Below, one piece after another: positions 33,808-52,943 of a stretch of DNA of 64,000 nt. The notes beneath the pieces are model-generated. The model made no database searches. It was not told the origin of the DNA and saw only the letters and a list, made by a program, of their open reading frames with translations. The position numbers and the translations under genes are program-made. Numbering within the stretch: the first letter of the stretch is position 1; the number at the start of each line of letters is the position of its first letter. Where the stretch lies: the NCBI RefSeq assembly GCF_002277955.1, contig NZ_CP018477.1, positions 1,426,001 to 1,490,000 of the forward strand, written 5' to 3'. This DNA comes from Thermogutta terrifontis. GTDB lineage: Bacteria > Planctomycetota > Planctomycetia > Pirellulales > Thermoguttaceae.

Positions 33808-34814
33808 TGTCGCACCTGAAATAAACTCGAATCCAAGCCAGTAGAAGTCGTGTTCCCTTTTACGTTTCCTGACGCTTCTTGAGCTTTTCGGCGGAGTCCG
33901 CCACGCATTTGTTGCGAGTCACCACGTGACCCGGACATCAGCACCCTGGGGACATGTCGGCCCGCGCGTCTCCCCGCGGTTCGCTCCGCAACGGGGGATT
34001 GCAGTCCGGGTCCAATGCATTGTACCGCCGAGCGAAGAAGCCGTGTTCCCACGGGGGAGGATGGCGATCATGGGCACGTCACCACGACACATTAGAGCAT
34101 ACCGCACAAATCCTGCCGAGGAAACTGTGATCCCCTTCTTGTGGGGGGAACGCGTATCGTCGTGGCGGGACAGATGAGAGGGTAACCGATGTAGCGCGAC
34201 AGCGCCTCTTCAAAACCTCTTCAAAGGTAAGCCGATCCAGTTGGTTTCGGCTCGTTAAATCCGGAACTTTACAGAAAATTGGAACTTTCGTTGCGGCGGC
34301 GCGATCAAAAGATTGAGGGTGGGCCAGCCTGGGACGGTCAGAAAACGCGCTGCGCGCGGTTAAAACGGCGTGGAAGATGGCAATCGATTCAGCAACCAGA
34401 AGTCATCTGGCGATCGTATTCCAGGTTGCCGCTTGGCCGCTCACTCCGACTGGTTGGTTTCTTACCACCAGATCCGTCTCCGGTACCGGGGCAGGTTGCC
34501 ACTTTGATCGGTTGGACGGCTCTTCATGGCCAAGACTTGACGCCTATCCCCCCCGTAATCATGATAAAACAGCGGAGATGGATACTCTGGAGAAAGTATC
34601 TCGGAGGCGGAGAAGCGCAGTCCCTTTCAAAGCATCTATTAATCCGGCTTCTCCCGGAGGAGGGGCACGCCAAGCGGGGCCGACCTTCCGCGAGTGGGGG
34701 GACGCGACTTTTTGGGGCGGTGTTAAACACGGGGTTTGAAGTAGGGGGACGAACAGCCCTAGGCAAAGGATCTAGGAAATAACCGATCAGTATCGACTTA
34801 GGTTGAGGTCGATC
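33808..34814. other. Gene-poor intergenic region before the giant protein gene
   Basis: About 1 kb. The few open frames are arginine-rich or low in protein character, and none was accepted. A short direct repeat CCTCTTCAAAA/CCTCTTCAAAG lies near 34205-34226. The promoter of the giant gene must be here or close by. Confidence 0.5.
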
Positions 34815-37800
34815 ATGTTGACACAGCGGGTTGCTCATCATCAGAGGAAAGGTTCCATGCTCGCCAACTTGCTGGCTTCCTTGCGTCGTCCGCGAAAGAA
34901 ATCTCATCCTGCTCGGCAGCATCGACGTCTGCGGGTGGATGCGCTTGAAGAACGGACGCTTCTAAGCGTCACGCCGGTGGACATCCTCGATAAGCTTGCC
35001 AATCAATCCATCCAGCCTGTCATTCCATCTGGAAACACCAATCCGGGACAATCGTTGGCGGTGGATGCCGACGGCGATTTCGTCATTGTGTGGACCCGCT
35101 ACGATACGATCATCGATCCCAACACGGGATTGCCTGTGATCGATCCGGTCACCGGTCAGCCGAAGACCGAAGCCAACATTTATGCCCGCTATTTCACGGA
35201 CGAGGTTCAGCGGATCACTTTGCCGTCGGGTGTATTGAACGACAATGTTCCTTCACAGTATGGGCAGTTCTCGCTGATCTACGGCGGCACGACGCTGGTG
35301 CAGAAGCTGACGATCTCGGCCACGTATGAGCCGTTCGCCGCGGTGCAGCAGAATATCGTGGGAACGTTTGTGCTTCAGGCGGACGCCAATGGAGACGGGA
35401 TCATCTCCCCGACGGAGCGTGCCACCATCGTCTATGACGAAACGAACAGCATCAGTAATCTAGCAACGTCGATTCAGACCGCCCTCCAAGGCATCGGGGG
35501 ACCGCTGCAAAACGCCAAGGTGACCCCGATCAATGCGAAAGAGTTCTTGATTGAATATGGCAGCGCCGCGCTGGGGGTCAATCAGCCCAAGCTCTCTGTC
35601 GGTACCGTGAACTTTTCCAGCGGTTTTTATCCGGCCGTGCAGGTCTCCACGGTCCGGGAGCCGATTCTCATCTCGAATATTCCCGTTTCGCCGACCAATC
35701 CGCAACTGACGGCCCAGGCCCTGGAGCAGGCCTTCAATACCCGCCTCAAGGCCTACGCGATGGGGCCCATCGATTTCCCGCCGCCGGATCGCGTGCCCAG
35801 TTCAATGGAAGGTCCCTACACGGACCCGATTACGGTGGCTGCTGCTGTTCCCCAGGTGCAGGTCACAGCCGTCAATGCGACGACGTTTGACATCCGGTTT
35901 GTGGGCGATTCGAGCAAGCTCGATCATCCGGAGTTCATCATTGCATCTGTGACCGACGAGCTGGGCAACAACCTCCTGCCGTCGCCGGAGGCTTCGGTCG
36001 TCACCATCAAGCAGTCGAGTCCAGAGTTCCGGGTGAACCCCGAAGAGCCGGATGATCCGTTCACCCCCGGGCCCGATAAATACGATCAGACCAACCCGGC
36101 GGTGGCCATGGATGCCGATGGGGACTTCATCATTGTGTGGGAAAGCAAAGTTCCCGACAGCTACGCCTATGGCAGTGTCAGCGACATCTTCGCGCGTCGC
36201 TTCCGGCCGGTAGGAAATGCCGTCCTGGGTGTCTCTCAATTCGTGGTGGATATGAATGCCGACGGCACGCCGGAGACCCCGATCGACGGCGTCATTCCGC
36301 TGGTGTCGCCGCTCAACACGGTGGTTCAAACGCTGACGGTGGACAGCCTCGTCCCCGGAGCCCTGGCTGGCCGATTCCGGCTGAGCGTGGCCGGTAAGAC
36401 CACCGATGACATCGTCTTTGACAGCACGAATCTGGCCACCACGGCGGCCAACATTCAGGGCGCTTTGGTGGTGGCGGGATTCCAGGATGTCAGCGTGACC
36501 GTGGCCTCCTCCACCGATCCCTATCAGTTCCGCATCAGCTTCCGCCAGACGTTCTCCGGGCCCAACGGGTTGGCGGACGCGATCGTTCGGTACGTGGATC
36601 CGGTAGAGGGCACGCCCCTGGGTGCGCTGGCTACTGTCTCGTCCCAGCTCGTGCCAGGTCAGGATCTCTTCACATTCCGTGTGAACACAGAGACTCTGCG
36701 GGCACAGTTTGCTCCAGCCGTGGCCATGGACTTGGCGGGGAATTTCGTGATCGCCTGGGCCAACAGCGCGCAGGACTTCAGCTTTTATAACGGGATTCGG
36801 GCCCAGATTTTCAGCCGGGATGGCAACAGGATTGGAAACGAATTTCTCGTGAACACGGAGGACACGGCGGTTTACCTCAATCCGGCCGTGGGGATGTCGC
36901 GGACGGGTGAGTTTGTCATCGCGTGGGAGCGGACCACGGACGTCAACTATTTGACAGGCGCCCCGTATGTGACGACCGTTCTGGCCAAAGGTTACGATCT
37001 TACCGGCCAGGTCATTCTTCCGCAATTTGGCGTCGGGGGTGGGGGCAACCCCACGGTTGCGTTTGATTCGGCCAATCATTTCCTGGTCACCTGGAGCGCC
37101 GTCGCAGATGCGGATAGCACCGGGCAGACGAGTATTGGTGTCCGCGCGATCGTTTATGATTTGAACGGCAACGTCATTCGCGACACGTTCCGACCCAATA
37201 GTGCGTCTTTCAGTCCAGGATCCACCCCGTTATGGCCGTTAGCGCAGTTTGGAGGTGGCGGTGGACTGGATGCCGACGGGGATTTGATTGTCGCCTACGA
37301 TGGGTATGGGCCGGATGTCTCGGAAAACGCGCGCGGCGTTACTCAGGCAGTGCGGCAGCTTCTGCTGGCTCAGATCAACTCTCAGACAAACGCTGATCTC
37401 CTTAATTACTTTGATCCGCAGACGGAAACCCTGTTTTCTGCGGGGAGCCCAAGTAATGGCGATGTGGACGGCGTCATAGACGCGATTCTTGTCCGCGCGC
37501 TCAACCGCGGTGCTACGCCACAACAGGTGGGACGCTTGCGGGCGATTTTGGAGGGGGTGGCCGGTCTCCTTCGCGGCGAGGCGAACGGTGTCATGTTCAG
37601 CCGGTTCGACGCCGATCCCACGATGTCCTACGGGACGCTCTTCAGTGACAGTGTGGCCAACACGCTCCGGGATGGCCACAACACCCGATACCTGATCCTG
37701 ATGGACAACAACCTGAACTGGGAATCGTTCGTCATTCGGATCTGGCGAACAGGCATCGGCGGTTTTGAGGACGTAACGGTTAACAACATTCAGACCAACC

Positions 37801-40800
37801 AGGTGTGGGACCGGACGCTCACCCGAGATCGAATCGATCAGGTTCTGGAAGGAGCCGCCCGGACTGGGACCGCCTGGGCTGAGCCGACTTACGAAGGGCC
37901 CATCGATGTGCGAATCATCAGCCCCTTTGAAGTTGCCAATCGAATTGGAACACCCTGGGAAATTCCGGTGGCCAATCCCAATCAGTACACCATCTATGAA
38001 GTGACATTCCAGGGTGCGAGCCACGATTGGCCGTTTACCATTACGGGTGTCTACCCCGGTCGTGCGGGTGGACAAGATGTGGCACCGCCTCTCATGATTG
38101 CCCAAAGCTACGGCGATCCGGGAACGGAACAAGGCTGGGCTTCGATTGGTGTGACGCCGGAAGGTTCCTTCGTTGTCGCGTACACCCAAATGGAGCAAAA
38201 CACAGATGGAAGTTTGACCAACGCGACGATTCGCTACCGGCAATTTCGCGAAACCGTGGACACCGCTGGGCCGTTCGTCACCGACATCATTGCGCCGACT
38301 GGAACGAGTCTGTGGGGCGGCGCGAATGTCCAAGGTTCCATTTCGCAGGTTGTTATCACGTTTAACGAAGAATTACTCGGTGGGGACCCACGGACCGTCC
38401 TGGATAGTGTGCTCAACCCCGACAACTTTGTGCTCCTCCGCAACGGCGTGGAGATTCCGCGCGGCGTGGTGAAAGTCGAATTCGGTATGAACGCCGCGTC
38501 GCTGCTCAACGGTAAGCCATACGATATCGATGGAGACGGAAATCCCGATGGAGTTTATCAACTCTATGCGCTCCCCACGAACAAGTGGGAGGCTGTCCTC
38601 ACCTTGGATGGTAATGGAGCACTGGAGCCCGGCACGCCGGGACTTCCTGACGGTGACTATCAAATTGTCATTCGTGCCCCTTCCGGGGCGAACTCAGGAA
38701 TTCGAGACAAGGCGGGAAACCCCTTGAATTCCACCGGTTTTGTGCCGGCTGGTGCCAACACCACGCTCTCCTTCCACGTCACAGTACCCGCCCAGGATAC
38801 ACCGGTTCTGCCGGTCAATGCTCGGACGCAGCCGGAGAGTCCGAATGCGGTGGCGCGGGATGCGGATGGGGACTATGTGGTGGTGTGGACGCAGACGGAT
38901 GCGAGCGGCCGGAATCGGGTGTATTTCCGGCTGTTTGATCGGGACGGGACGCCGGCGGATCTGGATTTGAACGGGAACGGGGTGATTGATGTTACAGAGA
39001 TTGATAACGCGCCGGCGATGGCGGTGACGACGAGTTCGGTGTTTGCCAACGATGACCAGCAATTTGGGTCGGTGGCGATGACACCGGACGGGGACTTTGT
39101 GATCACGTGGACGAACACGCGGAATGGGAATGCCGACATTTATGCGCGGCGGTTTGGTTCCAACGGCCAACCGTTGGGGGATGCCTTCCGTGTGAACACG
39201 TTCACGTCCAACGACCAGAAGTGGTCGGATGTGGCGATGGACGCGGAGGGGAATTTTGTGGTGGTGTGGTCGAGCTGGGGCCAGGAGCCTGGTGGGTCGG
39301 CGTCGGGCTGGGGGATTTTCGCCCGTCGGTTTGATCAGCAGGGGCAGGCGCTGGATGCCACGGAATTCCAGGTGAACACGACGGTGGTGGGTGACCAGAC
39401 GTTGCCCAGCGTGTCGATGGACTATCGTGGGAATTTCGCGGTCGCGTGGCAGACGGCGGGTGGGATTGCGCTGCGGACCTTCACGGCTGGTGGGGTGGCG
39501 CAACAGGCGGCGGAGATTCCGGTGGGCACCACGGTAATCGGCCAGAAGGCCTATCCGGATGTGGCGATGGCAGGTTCGGGGCAGACAGTGGTGGTGAGCT
39601 GGATGGGTCCGGACGGGAACGGCAACGGCGTGTTTGTGGACCTGTTCCAGTGGGACGCTGTGACGCAGAGCTGGGTGGCGGTGCAGACTGGGCAGCGGGT
39701 GAACGTGAGTGTCACCGGCGAACAGGGCTATGCGTCGGTGGCGATGGCGGTGAACGGGGCATTTGTGGTGAGCTGGAGTGGGATTGGGAACCAGCCGGGG
39801 CAGGAGGATCAACTGGAATCAGGAGTCTTTTACCGGCTGTTTAATGCGGCGGGGAATCCGGTTGGTGGGGAGCGTCGGGTGAACCAGGTAGTGGCGGGTC
39901 GGCAGTGGGCGCCATCGGTGGGGGCGGATGCGGATGGGAACTTTATTGTGGTGTTCACTGGACCGAGTTCTGCCAATCCGGCATTGAGCACGGTGTATCG
40001 GTTTGACAGCCGGGTGTACCTGAACCAGGGGGATGTGTCCGGGCCGATTGTGACGAAGGTGCTGACCGGGACAGGTGGATTGGTGCTGGAGGGAGGCCGG
40101 GTGACGCCTGGTCCGCAGCAGTTGGTGGTGGTGTTCAGCGAGGACATGTCGCAACGGCTGGCGGACATTAATGGGGATGGGCTGATTGACGACCGGGATG
40201 GTCCGGGGACGGATAGCGTCCTCAATTTGCGGAACTGGAAGCTGTTCCGGAATGGTCAGGAGGTGGTGGGGGCGATTAAGGATGTGCAGTTCGGGTACAA
40301 CCCGGTGATGCGGCGGTACGAGGCGGTGCTGACTTTGGACAGCGATCCGAACACGTCGGGGAACGAGGCGTTGGTGCCTGGGGACTATCAGTTGTTGGTG
40401 ATGGACGTGATGACGGACGCTTATCCGTATTTCCGGGTGAGCGATCCGGTGACGGGGTTGCAATTGGATGGAGACCGGGATGGAGTGCCGGGCACGGGTG
40501 GAGGGCAGCTTGGATTTGTCCGGAATTTCCGTGTAGTGGGGGGCGTGCCTGGTCAGGACACGGGGGTGATCCCTGGGGTGTTGACGCAGAATGCGCGGAC
40601 GCAGCCGGAGAGTCCGAATGCGGTGGCGCGGGATGCGGACGGGGACTATGTGGTGGTGTGGACGCAGACGGATGCGAGTGGCCGGAATCGGGTGTATTTC
40701 CGGCTGTTTGATCGGGATGGGACGCCGGCGGATCTGGATTTGAACGGGAACGGGGTGATTGATGTTACGGAGGTTGATAATGCGCCGGCGATGGCGGTGA

Positions 40801-43800
40801 CGACGAGTTCGGTGTTTGCCAACGATGACCAGCAGTTTGGGTCGGTGGCGATGACACCGGACGGGGACTTTGTGATCACGTGGACGAACACGCGGAATGG
40901 GAATGCCGACATTTACGCGCGGCGGTTTGCGGCGAACGGTCAGCCACTGGGGGACGCGTTCCTGGTGAACACGATCACGACGAACGATCAGAAGTGGTCG
41001 GATGTGGCGATGGACGCAGAGGGGCGGTTTGTGGTGGTTTGGGCGAGTCTGGCTCAGGAGGCCGGTTCGACAGTGCCGAGTTGGGGCATTTTTGCCCGGC
41101 GGTATGATGAGAACGGCCAGGCGGTGGGGGCGGAATTCCAGGTGAACACGACGGTGGTGGGTGACCAGACGTTGCCCAGCGTGTCGATGGACTATCGTGG
41201 GAATTTTGCGGTGGCGTGGCAGACGGTGGTGGGGGCGTTGGACACCGACATCGCGGTGGCGATGTATAGCTGGTCGGGGGCGGTGATATTGCCAGAGACG
41301 ATTGTGAATGTGGGGCGGGCGGGTCAGCAGACGAACCCGGACATCGTCTTGGCACCGGGTGGGAGTGTATTTGCGGTGACCTGGACGGGTTTGGACACTC
41401 AGGGGACGGGGGTGTTTGCGCAGGTGTATGCGCCGGATCCGACGACGGGGGCGTGGGTGGGATTACCGGCGGACATTTTGGTGAACACGACGATCCAGGG
41501 GGACCAGCGGTTTTCTTCGCTTGCCATGGATGGGGTTGGCAATTTTGTGGTGACATGGAGTGGATACGGCACTCAGCGGGACGAGGAGGACCTGGCGGAC
41601 TCGGGAGTGTTCTATCAGCGGTTTGACAGTGCGGGGAACCGTCTGGGTGGTGAGCGTCGAGTGAACCAGGTGGTAGCAGGTCGGCAGTGGATACCGTCGG
41701 TGGCATCGGACGCGGACGGGAACTTCATTGTGGTGTTTACGGGTCCGAGTGCGACGAATCCGTCGCTGACGACGGTGTATCGGTTTGACAGCCGGAACCA
41801 TCTGACGCTGGATGACATTGCGGCGCCGATTGTGACGAAGGTGTGGACGGAGGACCGGCAGTTGATCACGGAGGGGAGCCGTGTGGTGGTGGGACCGAGC
41901 CAACTGATTGTGCAGTTGAGCGAGGAGATGTCGCGGCGGTTGTCGGATGCGAACAACAACGGGATTTACGATGCGGGAGATATTCCTGGTCCCGACAGCA
42001 TTCTCAATGTTCAGAACTGGCGCCTGTTCCGGAATGGCCAGGAGGTGGTGGGGGCGGTGAAGTCGGTGAGCTTCAGCCTGAATCCTGTGACCCGCAAATG
42101 GGAAGCGGTGCTGACGCTGGATGGAAACCCCGACAGTCCGATCAATGACCCGCTGCCTTCCGGCGATTACCAGCTTCTCGTGGGTGACTTGATGACGGAC
42201 GCTTATCCGTATTTCCGGGTCACCGATCCCGTGATCGGATTCCAACTGGATGGAGATCGCGACGGAGTTCCGGGCACGGCGGCCGGGCTCGGTTTCGTGC
42301 GGACCTTCATTGTGGGGCAGGGCAGTGGGATTGGTCCTGGAACACCCGGCACTCCCGGAGATACCGATATCAACCCCGTGGTGAACACCACGCTGGCCGG
42401 CGATCAATCCCTGCCCGCTGTGGCCATGAACGCAAACGGGGACTATGTCGTCGTGTGGGTGAGCGTTGGACAGGGTGCCGACGCGAACACGACGAATACG
42501 AACATCATCGCGCAGCGCTACAATCGTCGGGGCGAACCGCAGGGGACGGAATTCATCGTCAATACTTACGAAACAGGCAACCAGACCCAGCCTGCTGTCG
42601 CGATGGACAGCGCGGGGAACTTCATTGTGGTTTGGGCGGGACAAGGCGCGGACGATGTGGACGGCGTCTGGGCGCGGATGTTCGACCGATTCGGAAATCC
42701 GCTGGGCGATCAGTTCCGCGTCAATCAATATCGCAACAACGCCCAATACAACCCGCGTGTGGCTGTGAGTGCCTCGGGCAAGTTCGTGGTTACCTGGAGC
42801 AGCTATGGCCAGGACGGCGATAAGGACGGTGTCTATGCCCGATTGTACAACGCTTATGGCCAGGCCCTTTCCAATGAATTCCGCGTCAACACAACCACGG
42901 CGAATTATCAGCGGAATTCCGACGTGGCCATGGACGACGCCGGCAACTTTGTGGTCGCCTGGATGAGCTATGGTCAGGACGGCAGCGGTTATGCAGTGAT
43001 TGGGCGGGTGTTCAATGCCGACGGTACGGCCCGAACCGGCGAAATCCGGCTCAACCAGTACACCACCAATGACCAGATCGACCCACGGGTTGCCATGGAG
43101 CCCAACGGGAATTTCGTGGCCACCTGGGCGAGCTTCGGTCAGGACGGTAGCGGTTATGGCGTCTACGCCCGGCTGTTCAACGCCAACGGCACGGCCAGGA
43201 CCAACGAATTCCGGGTCAATCAAACGACCCTCCACTGGCAGGTGCAACCGGATGTCGCCATGGATCGCTCGGGCAACTTCACCATTGTCTGGATGACCTC
43301 CGGCCAGGACAATGACCTCCAGAACGATTGGGGAATTTATGCCCGGATGTTCACCTCTAGCGGCACAGACTTCTATCTGCCGCCGAAGGGATTCCTCGGC
43401 GAGTTCCGGGTGAATGCGGCCGTGGCGGGGAATCAGACTGATCCGGCCGTGGCGATGGATGCGGTGGGCAACTTTGTGGTGGTGTGGACCGGCCCATCCA
43501 CCGATCCGGATCCTCTAGTCGCCGCTCAAAATGGCACCGACATCTTCGCACGGCTGATCGATCCGCCGAGTGAGTTGACACTCCAGGGGACCTCCGGAAA
43601 CGATACGCTTGAATTCATTGCGGGCAGCAGCCTGGCCACGTCCACAATCAAACTGAACGGCCAGGTTATCACGCCTTCCACGTCGATAGCCCGGCTCATT
43701 TTCGAGGCCGGAGACGGCCAGGACACGGTCATTGTGACCGGAACGAACGGCCAGGAAATTGTGACCTTGTGGCCGACCGGTGGACAGTTCAAATTCCCCG

Positions 43801-44630
43801 GTGGATTCACGGTGGAAGTTCGGTCTGCTGAAAGAATCACAGTGGACGCCAAAGGTGGTACCAACGACCAGCTAACAGTGTATGACTCGGCCGGTGATGA
43901 CTCCATGACCGCGTCGCCCACCCAGGTCACGGCCACCAATTCGGCGAACGCCTACTCGCATCTGGCGAGGAATTTTGAACAGGTGACGCTCGTTTCCAGC
44001 GCCGGTGGCGAGGATACGGCGTCCCTTTACGACTCGCCGGGTGACGACATCTTCACCGGGACGCCGACCTATGGGGAAATGGCGGGGACCGGCTACAAAC
44101 TGCGGGCAGAAGGTTTCCGCTACCTCCACGGCTATGCTTTGGCCGGTGGGGCCGATACGGCGATGCTCTACGACTCGCCCGGTGATGACGAGTACGTCGG
44201 AACGCCCGACTATAACATCATGCGTAACAGTAACTTCTTCGTGCGGGCAAAGTACTTTGACTATGTCCACGCCTATGCCACGGCTGGGGGCTACGACCGG
44301 GCGACTCTCAAGGGGACCTCGGGAGCTGATAAGTTTGTGCTGGAACCCAACCTCGCGCGACTGAATTCCGGATCGTATGTCCATCGGGCGAAATTTTTCG
44401 AGGAGATCACCATCCGGGGCGGCGGTGGGCAGGACGTTGCTTATGTGGATAGAGGCACCGTTCTGCCAGGTGTCGTAGCGCGCGGAACCCCGCCCGTTCC
44501 TGTAGATGCGGCGCAGATTGCCTATCTCCAGCAGCTTTACAAGATTCAGGTCACCAATGAGGGTGGCACGGGTTCCAATAGGACGATCCGTCCGGCGGCC
44601 GACGCTGTGTTCAGCGCCTACTGGCCGTGA
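34815..44630 (+). CDS. Giant exported repeat protein with planctomycete L-E-x-R-x-L-L-S N-terminus
   Basis: A 3,271-residue protein. ATG 34815 has GAGGTC five bases upstream; ATG 34857, after AGGAAAGG, is an equally good start. The N-terminus is very basic and ends in RLRVDALEERTLLSV, the motif found at the start of many large exported planctomycete proteins. The rest is beta-rich. It has dozens of about 50-residue units of the type V-A-M-D-x-x-G-N-F-V-V-V-W, which resemble propeller blades. Three Ig-like segments start G-P-x-V-T-x-V, and EF-hand-like stretches such as DLNGNGVIDVTE suggest calcium binding. About four repeats of YDSPGDD type sit near the C-terminus. A 591-residue unit is tandemly duplicated. 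It probably acts as a surface adhesin or scaffold. A terminator follows, then the BBP7 gene. Confidence 0.88.
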   Translation: MLTQRVAHHQRKGSMLANLLASLRRPRKKSHPARQHRRLRVDALEERTLLSVTPVDILDKLANQSIQPVIPSGNTNPGQSLAVDADGDFVIVWTRYDTIIDPNTGLPVIDPVTGQPKTEANIYARYFTDEVQRITLPSGVLNDNVPSQYGQFSLIYGGTTLVQKLTISATYEPFAAVQQNIVGTFVLQADANGDGIISPTERATIVYDETNSISNLATSIQTALQGIGGPLQNAKVTPINAKEFLIEYGSAALGVNQPKLSVGTVNFSSGFYPAVQVSTVREPILISNIPVSPTNPQLTAQALEQAFNTRLKAYAMGPIDFPPPDRVPSSMEGPYTDPITVAAAVPQVQVTAVNATTFDIRFVGDSSKLDHPEFIIASVTDELGNNLLPSPEASVVTIKQSSPEFRVNPEEPDDPFTPGPDKYDQTNPAVAMDADGDFIIVWESKVPDSYAYGSVSDIFARRFRPVGNAVLGVSQFVVDMNADGTPETPIDGVIPLVSPLNTVVQTLTVDSLVPGALAGRFRLSVAGKTTDDIVFDSTNLATTAANIQGALVVAGFQDVSVTVASSTDPYQFRISFRQTFSGPNGLADAIVRYVDPVEGTPLGALATVSSQLVPGQDLFTFRVNTETLRAQFAPAVAMDLAGNFVIAWANSAQDFSFYNGIRAQIFSRDGNRIGNEFLVNTEDTAVYLNPAVGMSRTGEFVIAWERTTDVNYLTGAPYVTTVLAKGYDLTGQVILPQFGVGGGGNPTVAFDSANHFLVTWSAVADADSTGQTSIGVRAIVYDLNGNVIRDTFRPNSASFSPGSTPLWPLAQFGGGGGLDADGDLIVAYDGYGPDVSENARGVTQAVRQLLLAQINSQTNADLLNYFDPQTETLFSAGSPSNGDVDGVIDAILVRALNRGATPQQVGRLRAILEGVAGLLRGEANGVMFSRFDADPTMSYGTLFSDSVANTLRDGHNTRYLILMDNNLNWESFVIRIWRTGIGGFEDVTVNNIQTNQVWDRTLTRDRIDQVLEGAARTGTAWAEPTYEGPIDVRIISPFEVANRIGTPWEIPVANPNQYTIYEVTFQGASHDWPFTITGVYPGRAGGQDVAPPLMIAQSYGDPGTEQGWASIGVTPEGSFVVAYTQMEQNTDGSLTNATIRYRQFRETVDTAGPFVTDIIAPTGTSLWGGANVQGSISQVVITFNEELLGGDPRTVLDSVLNPDNFVLLRNGVEIPRGVVKVEFGMNAASLLNGKPYDIDGDGNPDGVYQLYALPTNKWEAVLTLDGNGALEPGTPGLPDGDYQIVIRAPSGANSGIRDKAGNPLNSTGFVPAGANTTLSFHVTVPAQDTPVLPVNARTQPESPNAVARDADGDYVVVWTQTDASGRNRVYFRLFDRDGTPADLDLNGNGVIDVTEIDNAPAMAVTTSSVFANDDQQFGSVAMTPDGDFVITWTNTRNGNADIYARRFGSNGQPLGDAFRVNTFTSNDQKWSDVAMDAEGNFVVVWSSWGQEPGGSASGWGIFARRFDQQGQALDATEFQVNTTVVGDQTLPSVSMDYRGNFAVAWQTAGGIALRTFTAGGVAQQAAEIPVGTTVIGQKAYPDVAMAGSGQTVVVSWMGPDGNGNGVFVDLFQWDAVTQSWVAVQTGQRVNVSVTGEQGYASVAMAVNGAFVVSWSGIGNQPGQEDQLESGVFYRLFNAAGNPVGGERRVNQVVAGRQWAPSVGADADGNFIVVFTGPSSANPALSTVYRFDSRVYLNQGDVSGPIVTKVLTGTGGLVLEGGRVTPGPQQLVVVFSEDMSQRLADINGDGLIDDRDGPGTDSVLNLRNWKLFRNGQEVVGAIKDVQFGYNPVMRRYEAVLTLDSDPNTSGNEALVPGDYQLLVMDVMTDAYPYFRVSDPVTGLQLDGDRDGVPGTGGGQLGFVRNFRVVGGVPGQDTGVIPGVLTQNARTQPESPNAVARDADGDYVVVWTQTDASGRNRVYFRLFDRDGTPADLDLNGNGVIDVTEVDNAPAMAVTTSSVFANDDQQFGSVAMTPDGDFVITWTNTRNGNADIYARRFAANGQPLGDAFLVNTITTNDQKWSDVAMDAEGRFVVVWASLAQEAGSTVPSWGIFARRYDENGQAVGAEFQVNTTVVGDQTLPSVSMDYRGNFAVAWQTVVGALDTDIAVAMYSWSGAVILPETIVNVGRAGQQTNPDIVLAPGGSVFAVTWTGLDTQGTGVFAQVYAPDPTTGAWVGLPADILVNTTIQGDQRFSSLAMDGVGNFVVTWSGYGTQRDEEDLADSGVFYQRFDSAGNRLGGERRVNQVVAGRQWIPSVASDADGNFIVVFTGPSATNPSLTTVYRFDSRNHLTLDDIAAPIVTKVWTEDRQLITEGSRVVVGPSQLIVQLSEEMSRRLSDANNNGIYDAGDIPGPDSILNVQNWRLFRNGQEVVGAVKSVSFSLNPVTRKWEAVLTLDGNPDSPINDPLPSGDYQLLVGDLMTDAYPYFRVTDPVIGFQLDGDRDGVPGTAAGLGFVRTFIVGQGSGIGPGTPGTPGDTDINPVVNTTLAGDQSLPAVAMNANGDYVVVWVSVGQGADANTTNTNIIAQRYNRRGEPQGTEFIVNTYETGNQTQPAVAMDSAGNFIVVWAGQGADDVDGVWARMFDRFGNPLGDQFRVNQYRNNAQYNPRVAVSASGKFVVTWSSYGQDGDKDGVYARLYNAYGQALSNEFRVNTTTANYQRNSDVAMDDAGNFVVAWMSYGQDGSGYAVIGRVFNADGTARTGEIRLNQYTTNDQIDPRVAMEPNGNFVATWASFGQDGSGYGVYARLFNANGTARTNEFRVNQTTLHWQVQPDVAMDRSGNFTIVWMTSGQDNDLQNDWGIYARMFTSSGTDFYLPPKGFLGEFRVNAAVAGNQTDPAVAMDAVGNFVVVWTGPSTDPDPLVAAQNGTDIFARLIDPPSELTLQGTSGNDTLEFIAGSSLATSTIKLNGQVITPSTSIARLIFEAGDGQDTVIVTGTNGQEIVTLWPTGGQFKFPGGFTVEVRSAERITVDAKGGTNDQLTVYDSAGDDSMTASPTQVTATNSANAYSHLARNFEQVTLVSSAGGEDTASLYDSPGDDIFTGTPTYGEMAGTGYKLRAEGFRYLHGYALAGGADTAMLYDSPGDDEYVGTPDYNIMRNSNFFVRAKYFDYVHAYATAGGYDRATLKGTSGADKFVLEPNLARLNSGSYVHRAKFFEEITIRGGGGQDVAYVDRGTVLPGVVARGTPPVPVDAAQIAYLQQLYKIQVTNEGGTGSNRTIRPAADAVFSAYWP
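38821..42320 (+). repeat. Tandem internal duplication inside the giant gene (period 1,773 bases)
   Basis: Copy 1 starts at 38821 and copy 2 at 40594, an in-frame offset of 591 codons. The first about 330 bases differ at only about ten positions by eye; similarity then falls through the middle and rises again at the Ig-like segment. The unit uses G-ending codons (GCG, GGG, GTG) far more than the flanking parts of the same gene. Confidence 0.88.
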
Positions 44631-51842: not shown

Positions 51843-52943
51843 ATGGACAAGGTTCATGTTCGCCCGATCACCTGCTACGAGCGACAAGAGCTCCATAGAA
51901 TGAAACGACAATTGTCTAATCATGTCAATAGCCGTCATGCGCGGATTGTGCTGCTCTCCGCCGGCGGGGTTCGCAACCGCGAAATTGCCCAGCGGGTCGA
52001 CTGCACGCCGCAGTGGGTGCGACGGATCATTCACCGCTTTAACCAAGGCGGGCTGGAGGCGATCAGTTGGCATCCGTACTACCAGGCTGGTGGCAGCCCA
52101 CGCAAATTCCTCGCCGAGGTGGTCGAGCAGATCGTCGAGGTGGCCCTTTCCTCGCCGAAGGCCTTGATCGGGATGACACAATGGTCGCTGAGCAAGTTGC
52201 GGGAGTATCTGGTGAGCCAGAAGATCGTTGCGTACATCAGCTTGGAGTGGCTGCGCACGTTGCTGAAGCGTTGTGGCATTCGCTGGCGGCGGACCAAGAC
52301 GTGGAAGGAGTCAACGGACCCGGAGTTTTGGCCTAAATACCGGCGAATTCGCCGACTTTACCAGCGTCGGCCGGCGGTGGGTCGGCGGATTTGCGTCGAT
52401 GAGTTTGGCCCCCTGAATCTCCAGCCACGCCATGGCCGTTGCCTGGCCAAAGCGGGGACCAAGCGGGTCGAGCATTTGCGAGCCACCTACCGCCGCACCA
52501 GTGGAGTTCGCCATTTCCTGGCGGCCTACGACCTGGAAACGGGCACGTTGTTGGGCCGGTTCTACAGCCGGAAAACCTGGATCGAGTTCTTGCGATTTCT
52601 CCGGTGGCTCCGGCGGCGTTACCCGCAGAGCGAAACGTTACACATCGTGATGGACAACTACAGTCCCCATCTGAAGGAAGAGGTCTGGGCATGGGCCCGG
52701 GCGAACAATGTGAAGTTTTACCTTACCCCGTCCAATGCGTCATGGCTGAATCGGATCGAGTGCCAGTTCACGGGACTGAAGAAGTTTGCCCTGGACAATA
52801 GCGACTATCGGAGTCATGAAGAACAGGAGCAAGCTATCCGGAGGTATTTGGCTTGGCGCAACGGCCGCCGTGCGATAGCCGTCGAGCCTTGGCGATCCTC
52901 CCTCCGAAGAAACGCCCCATCCACCTGCCGCGCAGCAGCCTAA
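51843..52943 (+). CDS. IS630-family transposase
   Basis: A 366-residue DDE transposase. The N-terminus has a helix-turn-helix of the type AGGVRNREIAQRVDCTPQWV, followed by an HTH_29/winged region and the DDE domain. The first catalytic aspartate is in RICVDEFGPLN, the second in LHIVMDNYSPH and the glutamate in WLNRIECQFTGL. All three are intact, so the enzyme is probably active. The C-terminal about 20 residues (after AWRNGRR) are rich in Arg, Ser and Ala and look less conserved than usual; I could not judge whether this reflects a late frameshift. It lies within an element that has good inverted repeats and a target duplication. Confidence 0.93.
   Translation: MDKVHVRPITCYERQELHRMKRQLSNHVNSRHARIVLLSAGGVRNREIAQRVDCTPQWVRRIIHRFNQGGLEAISWHPYYQAGGSPRKFLAEVVEQIVEVALSSPKALIGMTQWSLSKLREYLVSQKIVAYISLEWLRTLLKRCGIRWRRTKTWKESTDPEFWPKYRRIRRLYQRRPAVGRRICVDEFGPLNLQPRHGRCLAKAGTKRVEHLRATYRRTSGVRHFLAAYDLETGTLLGRFYSRKTWIEFLRFLRWLRRRYPQSETLHIVMDNYSPHLKEEVWAWARANNVKFYLTPSNASWLNRIECQFTGLKKFALDNSDYRSHEEQEQAIRRYLAWRNGRRAIAVEPWRSSLRRNAPSTCRAAA

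Follow-up and report, generated by a model that had tools for sequence, protein, structure and literature searches.

The window analysed here is a 64,000-nucleotide stretch of the Thermogutta terrifontis genome (G000:C1:1426001-1490000), a genome that consists of a single contig of 4,810,751 bases. At the locus lies a giant gene of 9828 bases encoding 3275 amino acids, whose parts are listed in Table 1; the first listed start is TTG, and the start position is putative. An N-terminal stretch of the protein ends in LEERTLLS, which we take to be like a planctomycete export or anchor motif. A Pfam search of the whole giant protein gave no match above cut-offs, and an NCBIfam search gave three matches, all below cut-off. 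The protein is probably a long string of modules exposed at the surface. Its gene is well over the 5 kb that defines planctomycete giant genes, which, according to the part of PMC5177795 available to us, are present in 29/29 planctomycete genomes examined; a function as a surface or matrix protein would be consistent with statements on giant genes in the same part of that paper. Opposite the giant gene (window 35802-43247) lie several long ORFs in antisense, the largest of 594 aa, which are probably a by-product of its composition. A DDE_3 transposase gene occurs about 7 kb downstream (window 51843-52943).

Table 1. Parts of the giant gene, its tandem unit and its codon patch, in window coordinates
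Feature	Position	Strand	Remarks
Giant gene	34803..44630	+	first listed start TTG
N-terminal region, propeller-type repeats	34926..38072	+	codons host-like; identity to congeners G086/G088 61-72%
Ig-like domain 0	38073..38792	+	codons host-like; precedes the module also in g5 genomes, G018 and G027
Left edge of codon patch, start of unit 1	best 38793, support 38787-38826	+	likelihood change point
Unit copy 1, 1773 bases, seven blades and Ig-like domain	38802..40574	+	G-ending codons over whole length
Recent gene-conversion tract, blades 1-2	38830..39118 (partner 40603-40891)	+	two-species site patterns
Second patch highly similar between copies	39361..39464 (partner 41131-41234)	+	95% identity; species site patterns mixed
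Unit copy 2, 1752 bases, architecture as copy 1 by homology	40575..42326	+	G-ending codons to about 41950-42130, host-like in last ~200 bases
Right edge of codon patch, within copy 2 Ig-like domain	best 41952, support 41940-42126	+	likelihood change point
Last propeller-type repeat region	42345..43727	+	codons host-like
C-terminal repeat region, DSPGDD type	43683..44630	+	codons host-like

The middle of the giant gene is written in a codon usage of its own. Four-fold degenerate sites in this patch (n=596) carry G 451, C 49, T 60 and A 36 times, or 76% G, against 476 G, 449 C, 183 T and 119 A in the flanks (n=1227), or 39% G. The third-position skew (skew3), (G3-C3)/(G3+C3), stays mostly between -0.2 and +0.1 in the flanks and runs at about +0.4 to +0.6 inside. 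Likelihood change points place the two edges with gains of 44 (left) and 55 (right) log units. Codon preferences shift toward TTG for Leu, toward G-ending codons for Lys, Glu and Gln, and toward T for Tyr, Phe and Ile (34 C and 68 T in the patch, 166 C and 115 T in the flanks), whereas Asp and Asn codons are unshifted (85 and 66 in the patch, 162 and 127 in the flanks). Such a codon-specific shift would not be expected from one plain strand mutation pressure. The shift is silent, since in the four Thermogutta copies the skews at the first and second codon positions (0.37 to 0.41 and -0.08 to 0.01, respectively) fall inside or near the values of 15 homologous modules (0.38 to 0.49 and -0.20 to -0.05). 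Two candidate causes were set aside: the standard G-quadruplex motif is absent in all three parts of the gene, and an R-loop style change from C to T does not fit a shift that is mainly from C to G and leaves Asp and Asn codons static.

The codon patch is real, and within the quarter of the genome that was sampled it is the only one of its kind. The control covered 1,264,000 bases (60 stretches of 20 kb plus the window), with 800 ORFs and 1800 segments of 390 codons outside the giant gene. Skew3 over these segments has a mean of -0.004, a standard deviation of 0.120 and a maximum of 0.38, while the sliding analysis of the giant gene rises to 0.58, which speaks against the uniform codon usage that the first-pass annotation had named as its refutation. 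Within-gene skew spans 0.77 in the giant gene and at most 0.34 in any other of the 38 ORFs of at least 900 aa in the sample. These controls, the likelihood edges and a repeat period of 1773-1782 bases bear out the annotation's central observation, a tandem 1,773-base unit with its own codon usage. Its contrast of G-ending copies with C-ending flanks stands in part: the copies are G-ending, but the patch runs out some 200-370 bases short of the copy 2 end, and the leaning of the flanks to C is only mild, with G and C about equal in the 5' flank. Our literature search found no description of a codon patch inside a planctomycete giant gene.

The two copies of the unit are spaced 1773 bases apart at the unit start and 1770-1782 further in. 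As had been noticed at first pass, the beginnings are nearly identical and the centres diverged: the opening ~330 bases show about 95-97% identity (95% over 300 bases), with 38-40 matches in each block of 40 across 38848-39127, whereas identity falls to about 46-60% in the centre and is 46-70% over much of the non-matching remainder. Overall the copies differ by about 26%. They differ at 31% of amino acids, compared with about 5% between species, while at silent sites the difference between copies is only about 2.5-3 times that between species; the protein changed fast after the duplication, mostly outside blades 1-2. The ends of the copies contrast in codon usage. Four-fold sites in the last ~230 aligned bases of copy 2 are flank-like (G 44%, C 33%), those in the equivalent part of copy 1 are not (G 64%, C 7%), and the two end stretches nevertheless share 71% protein identity.

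Each unit is predicted to form a seven-bladed beta-propeller followed by an Ig-like domain. Seven repeats of the blade motif were counted in copy 1, and an AlphaFold2 model built from an alignment of 23 modules has a pLDDT of 88.3 and a pTM of 0.90; its residues 2-410 match known propellers with Z of 25-38. The Ig-like label for the unit end is a putative assignment from sequence and position.

A second Thermogutta genome, the metagenome bin G087, carries both copies and the patch on a contig that ends at window position 42902. It differs from the host at 556/7392 aligned bases, and its change points, left 38802 (38775-38826) and right 42120 (41940-42132), equal those of the host within error. 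When named genomes were searched with the unit, the sole match was Thermogutta sp. MAG-77, which we take as G087. Searches of the whole host genome with DNA and protein showed no second locus for the unit, all ten protein matches falling in the giant gene. Within the family, 79/119 genomes (host included) match the unit at E<=0.001, many of them covering only one or two blades. In the order, 20/396 genomes (host included) match at E<=1e-40, all from within the family, and in a sample of the phylum 28/392 (host included) reach 1e-15, the matches listed beyond the host being partial. Full-length modules were found within the family only. Five genomes of other genera (G004, G005, G006, G018 and G027) have a full-length module directly behind Ig domain 0, in ordinary codons. 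Skew3 ranges from -0.44 to +0.09 in the 15 homologous modules from other genera, and none of 19 giant-gene pieces from genomes other than the two that carry the patch has a 390-codon segment above 0.21 (row L033, an unmatched antisense ORF, was excluded). Within the samples taken, the G-ending dialect is private to the units of the host and G087.

Two congeners, G086 and G088, have a gene of 2009-2010 aa that lacks both units, and its flanks group with those of the host in trees. Because the module sits at the same position in other genera, it is probably an old part of the giant gene that was lost in these two; repeated gain would be a less simple alternative. In a tree of 23 modules, the four Thermogutta copies fall together (100/100) as sister to genus g5 (91/98), with copy 1 pairing across the two species and copy 2 likewise. 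The flanks go with the module-less congeners, and the DnaG tree is without g5; the module tree alone does not contradict vertical descent.

The copies overwrote each other after the species split, in blades 1-2 only. In the recent tract of Table 1, 17 sites are concerted (alike within species, unlike between) and none orthologous; outside it, 8 are concerted and 314 orthologous (Fisher p 6e-23, for a comparison in which neighbouring sites are non-independent and the tract limits were picked from the data). The conversion postdates the split because, in the tract, the copies match within and differ between species. The second patch of high similarity is probably an older gene conversion. The first-pass annotation had proposed patchy conversion that keeps some parts uniform and lets others vary, and the concerted tract beside a separately evolving remainder agrees with that.

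Silent sites show no clear decay toward the codon usage of the host. Of 136 four-fold sites that can be compared outside the tracts, 36% differ between the copies, against 49% at saturation, and the G share at these non-tract sites is 69% (76% for the whole patch). Polarised silent changes comprise 20 losses and 5 gains of G, and a stationary simulation equals or exceeds this share in 15% of runs. For 127 non-tract sites, log-likelihoods are -320.7 for stationary evolution, -319.8 for host-like evolution since the split and -319.1 for host-like evolution since the duplication. For all 201 sites the corresponding values are -481.9, -486.8 and -485.7; here the stationary model is ahead by 4-5 units, but the conversion tract breaks the assumed tree.

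Near the right edge of the patch, the divergence between host and G087 drops, from 3-12 differences per 100 bases (41500-41999) to 0-3 per 100 (42000-42899), and it remains low as far as the G087 contig extends. Four-fold divergence along the gene runs 0.245, 0.165, 0.143 and 0.045, which contradicts equal rates, and a divergence expectation that assumes them was discarded. The drop, near 42,020 and by the codon edge, probably marks a recombination break, as would follow from recent exchange between the species; a mixed bin in G087 is a possible alternative.

We regard as the best explanation, at a probability of roughly 55%, that a block of two units recombined into the gene from an unsampled relative and that one end was afterwards homogenised by conversion. 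On the branch to the host and G087, homologous recombination would have replaced the segment that follows Ig domain 0 and reaches to the middle of a resident Ig domain. The incoming DNA would have held two tandem propeller-Ig modules in the G-ending dialect; the edges are seen where module 1 begins and within the Ig domain of module 2. The copies diverged in the middle and at the ends, while conversion re-copied blades 1-2 of one onto the other separately in each species, as the site patterns show, and the module would have been dropped entirely in the two congeners. The contrast between a host-like copy 2 end and a G-rich copy 1 end points to a tandem pair with one crossover in the second Ig domain. 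The composition of the segment is unlike that of the host, and import, though not proven, would best explain a sharp codon border running through a domain. Ig domain 0 was considered as part of the imported block (identity of 52-54% to g5 and 43-44% to the congeners) and dropped as evidence of import, because its tree holds Thermogutta together (57/95) and the two congeners are fast-changing.

The main weakness of import is the absence of a donor with the codon usage of the patch. In a sample of 40 family genomes from 34 genera, of which 36 were usable (four samples were without an ORF of 200 codons), none has matching codon usage, skew3 ranging from -0.22 to +0.12. Searches with the unit gave zero matches among viral contigs and phages, and zero among plasmids at the DNA level; the protein search of plasmids returned 34 records, in none of which a single place spans 80% of the unit, the ten listed being 28-32% identical. 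The first-pass annotation had looked to another giant gene as the source. Import survives as the best explanation, still unproven, but the host's other giant genes were rejected as its source, whole-genome DNA and protein searches having revealed no further copy. Two adjacent short genes elsewhere in the genome (G000:C1:1544739-1546615; L070 4739-6615) have a high G3 skew, 0.53 and 0.45; their codon distance to the unit, 0.263 compared with 0.306 for the genome sample, is still far, and the first of them looks by eye like a helix-turn-helix protein resembling a small terminase subunit. A 203-aa ORF on the minus strand (L202:13904-14515) reaches a skew3 of 0.74 over 120 codons and is apparently of low complexity.

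A purely vertical pair, whose silent sites moved to G in situ and stay there through a local process of mutation, repair or selection confined to this segment, is the strongest competitor, although we think it unlikely. The module at an equal position in other genera, the missing donor, a stationary model that is not rejected, and silent turnover already large relative to saturation while G stays high at the same sites would all suit it. Such descent sits badly with an edge that falls within a domain and leaves the end of copy 2 untouched, with Asp and Asn codons that did not shift, and with the lack of a second such 390-codon stretch in 1.26 Mb; on our reading of the counts, the mix of differences involving G also resembles that of the 5' flank. 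The stronger form of this idea, in which one gene segment keeps its own synonymous regime over evolutionary time by a local process, despite extensive silent turnover, as no fossil of import and with an edge that ignores the domain border, seems to us rather improbable.

We give similarly little credence to the order of events in the first-pass annotation, import of a single unit followed by duplication inside Thermogutta, to which a later substitution of host-like DNA for the copy 2 end would have to be added. The full support with which the copies cluster is in keeping with it, as are a silent age of the duplication only about 2.5 times that of the species split (from branch lengths) and the 3' part of the gene, seemingly exchanged recently between species with its break at the codon edge. 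That order needs an extra replacement step, however, and if evolution has been host-like since (model M2), about 85% of the unit's four-fold sites would have carried G when it was duplicated. Copy 1 is G-rich throughout and the codons of copy 2 become host-like within its Ig domain, so the order was probably the reverse, as would suit a tandem pair that came in together. An assembly or binning artefact might be feared from the length of the repeat and from a metagenome bin whose contig ends shortly beyond it, but we consider it highly improbable: both copies and the patch occur in two genomes that differ from each other, which also disposes of the assembly error named as a refutation at first pass, and a doubled repeat is excluded by the divergence of the copies.

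Planctomycete giant genes for surface proteins likely grow by module shuffling, and such events are rarely caught. Here a single gene in two species presents, at base resolution, a block of alien codons with sharp edges, the loss of the module in sister species and ongoing conversion at one end. Should a locally held codon regime prove true instead, it would challenge the treatment of codon usage as a property of whole genes or whole genomes.

The gene resembles the planctomycete giant genes of PMC5177795 in its length and in its repeated surface-type domains; a codon patch within a gene is not described in the part of that paper available to us. In fold, the unit is closest to the beta-propeller domain of CylK (PDB 7fh6), which aligns to residues 2-408 with Z 38.0 and rmsd 2.5 over 353 residues. 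The enzyme CylK has a further domain, and the likeness is one of fold only and does not imply an enzymatic role; a profile of the 23 modules had zero matches among PDB chains at E<=0.1, CylK included. The succession of a propeller and a domain of Ig-fold type in a surface protein has a parallel in the tandem YVTN beta-propeller and PKD of an S-layer protein (PDB 1l0q; Z 25.5, rmsd 2.6 over 268 residues), which is archaeal and, at 10% identity, again alike in fold only. The match of the copies within each species over one tract is that of concerted evolution by gene conversion between tandem repeats, with the difference that here only ~290 bases at the start of the 1.77-kb unit take part, while the remainder diverges freely.
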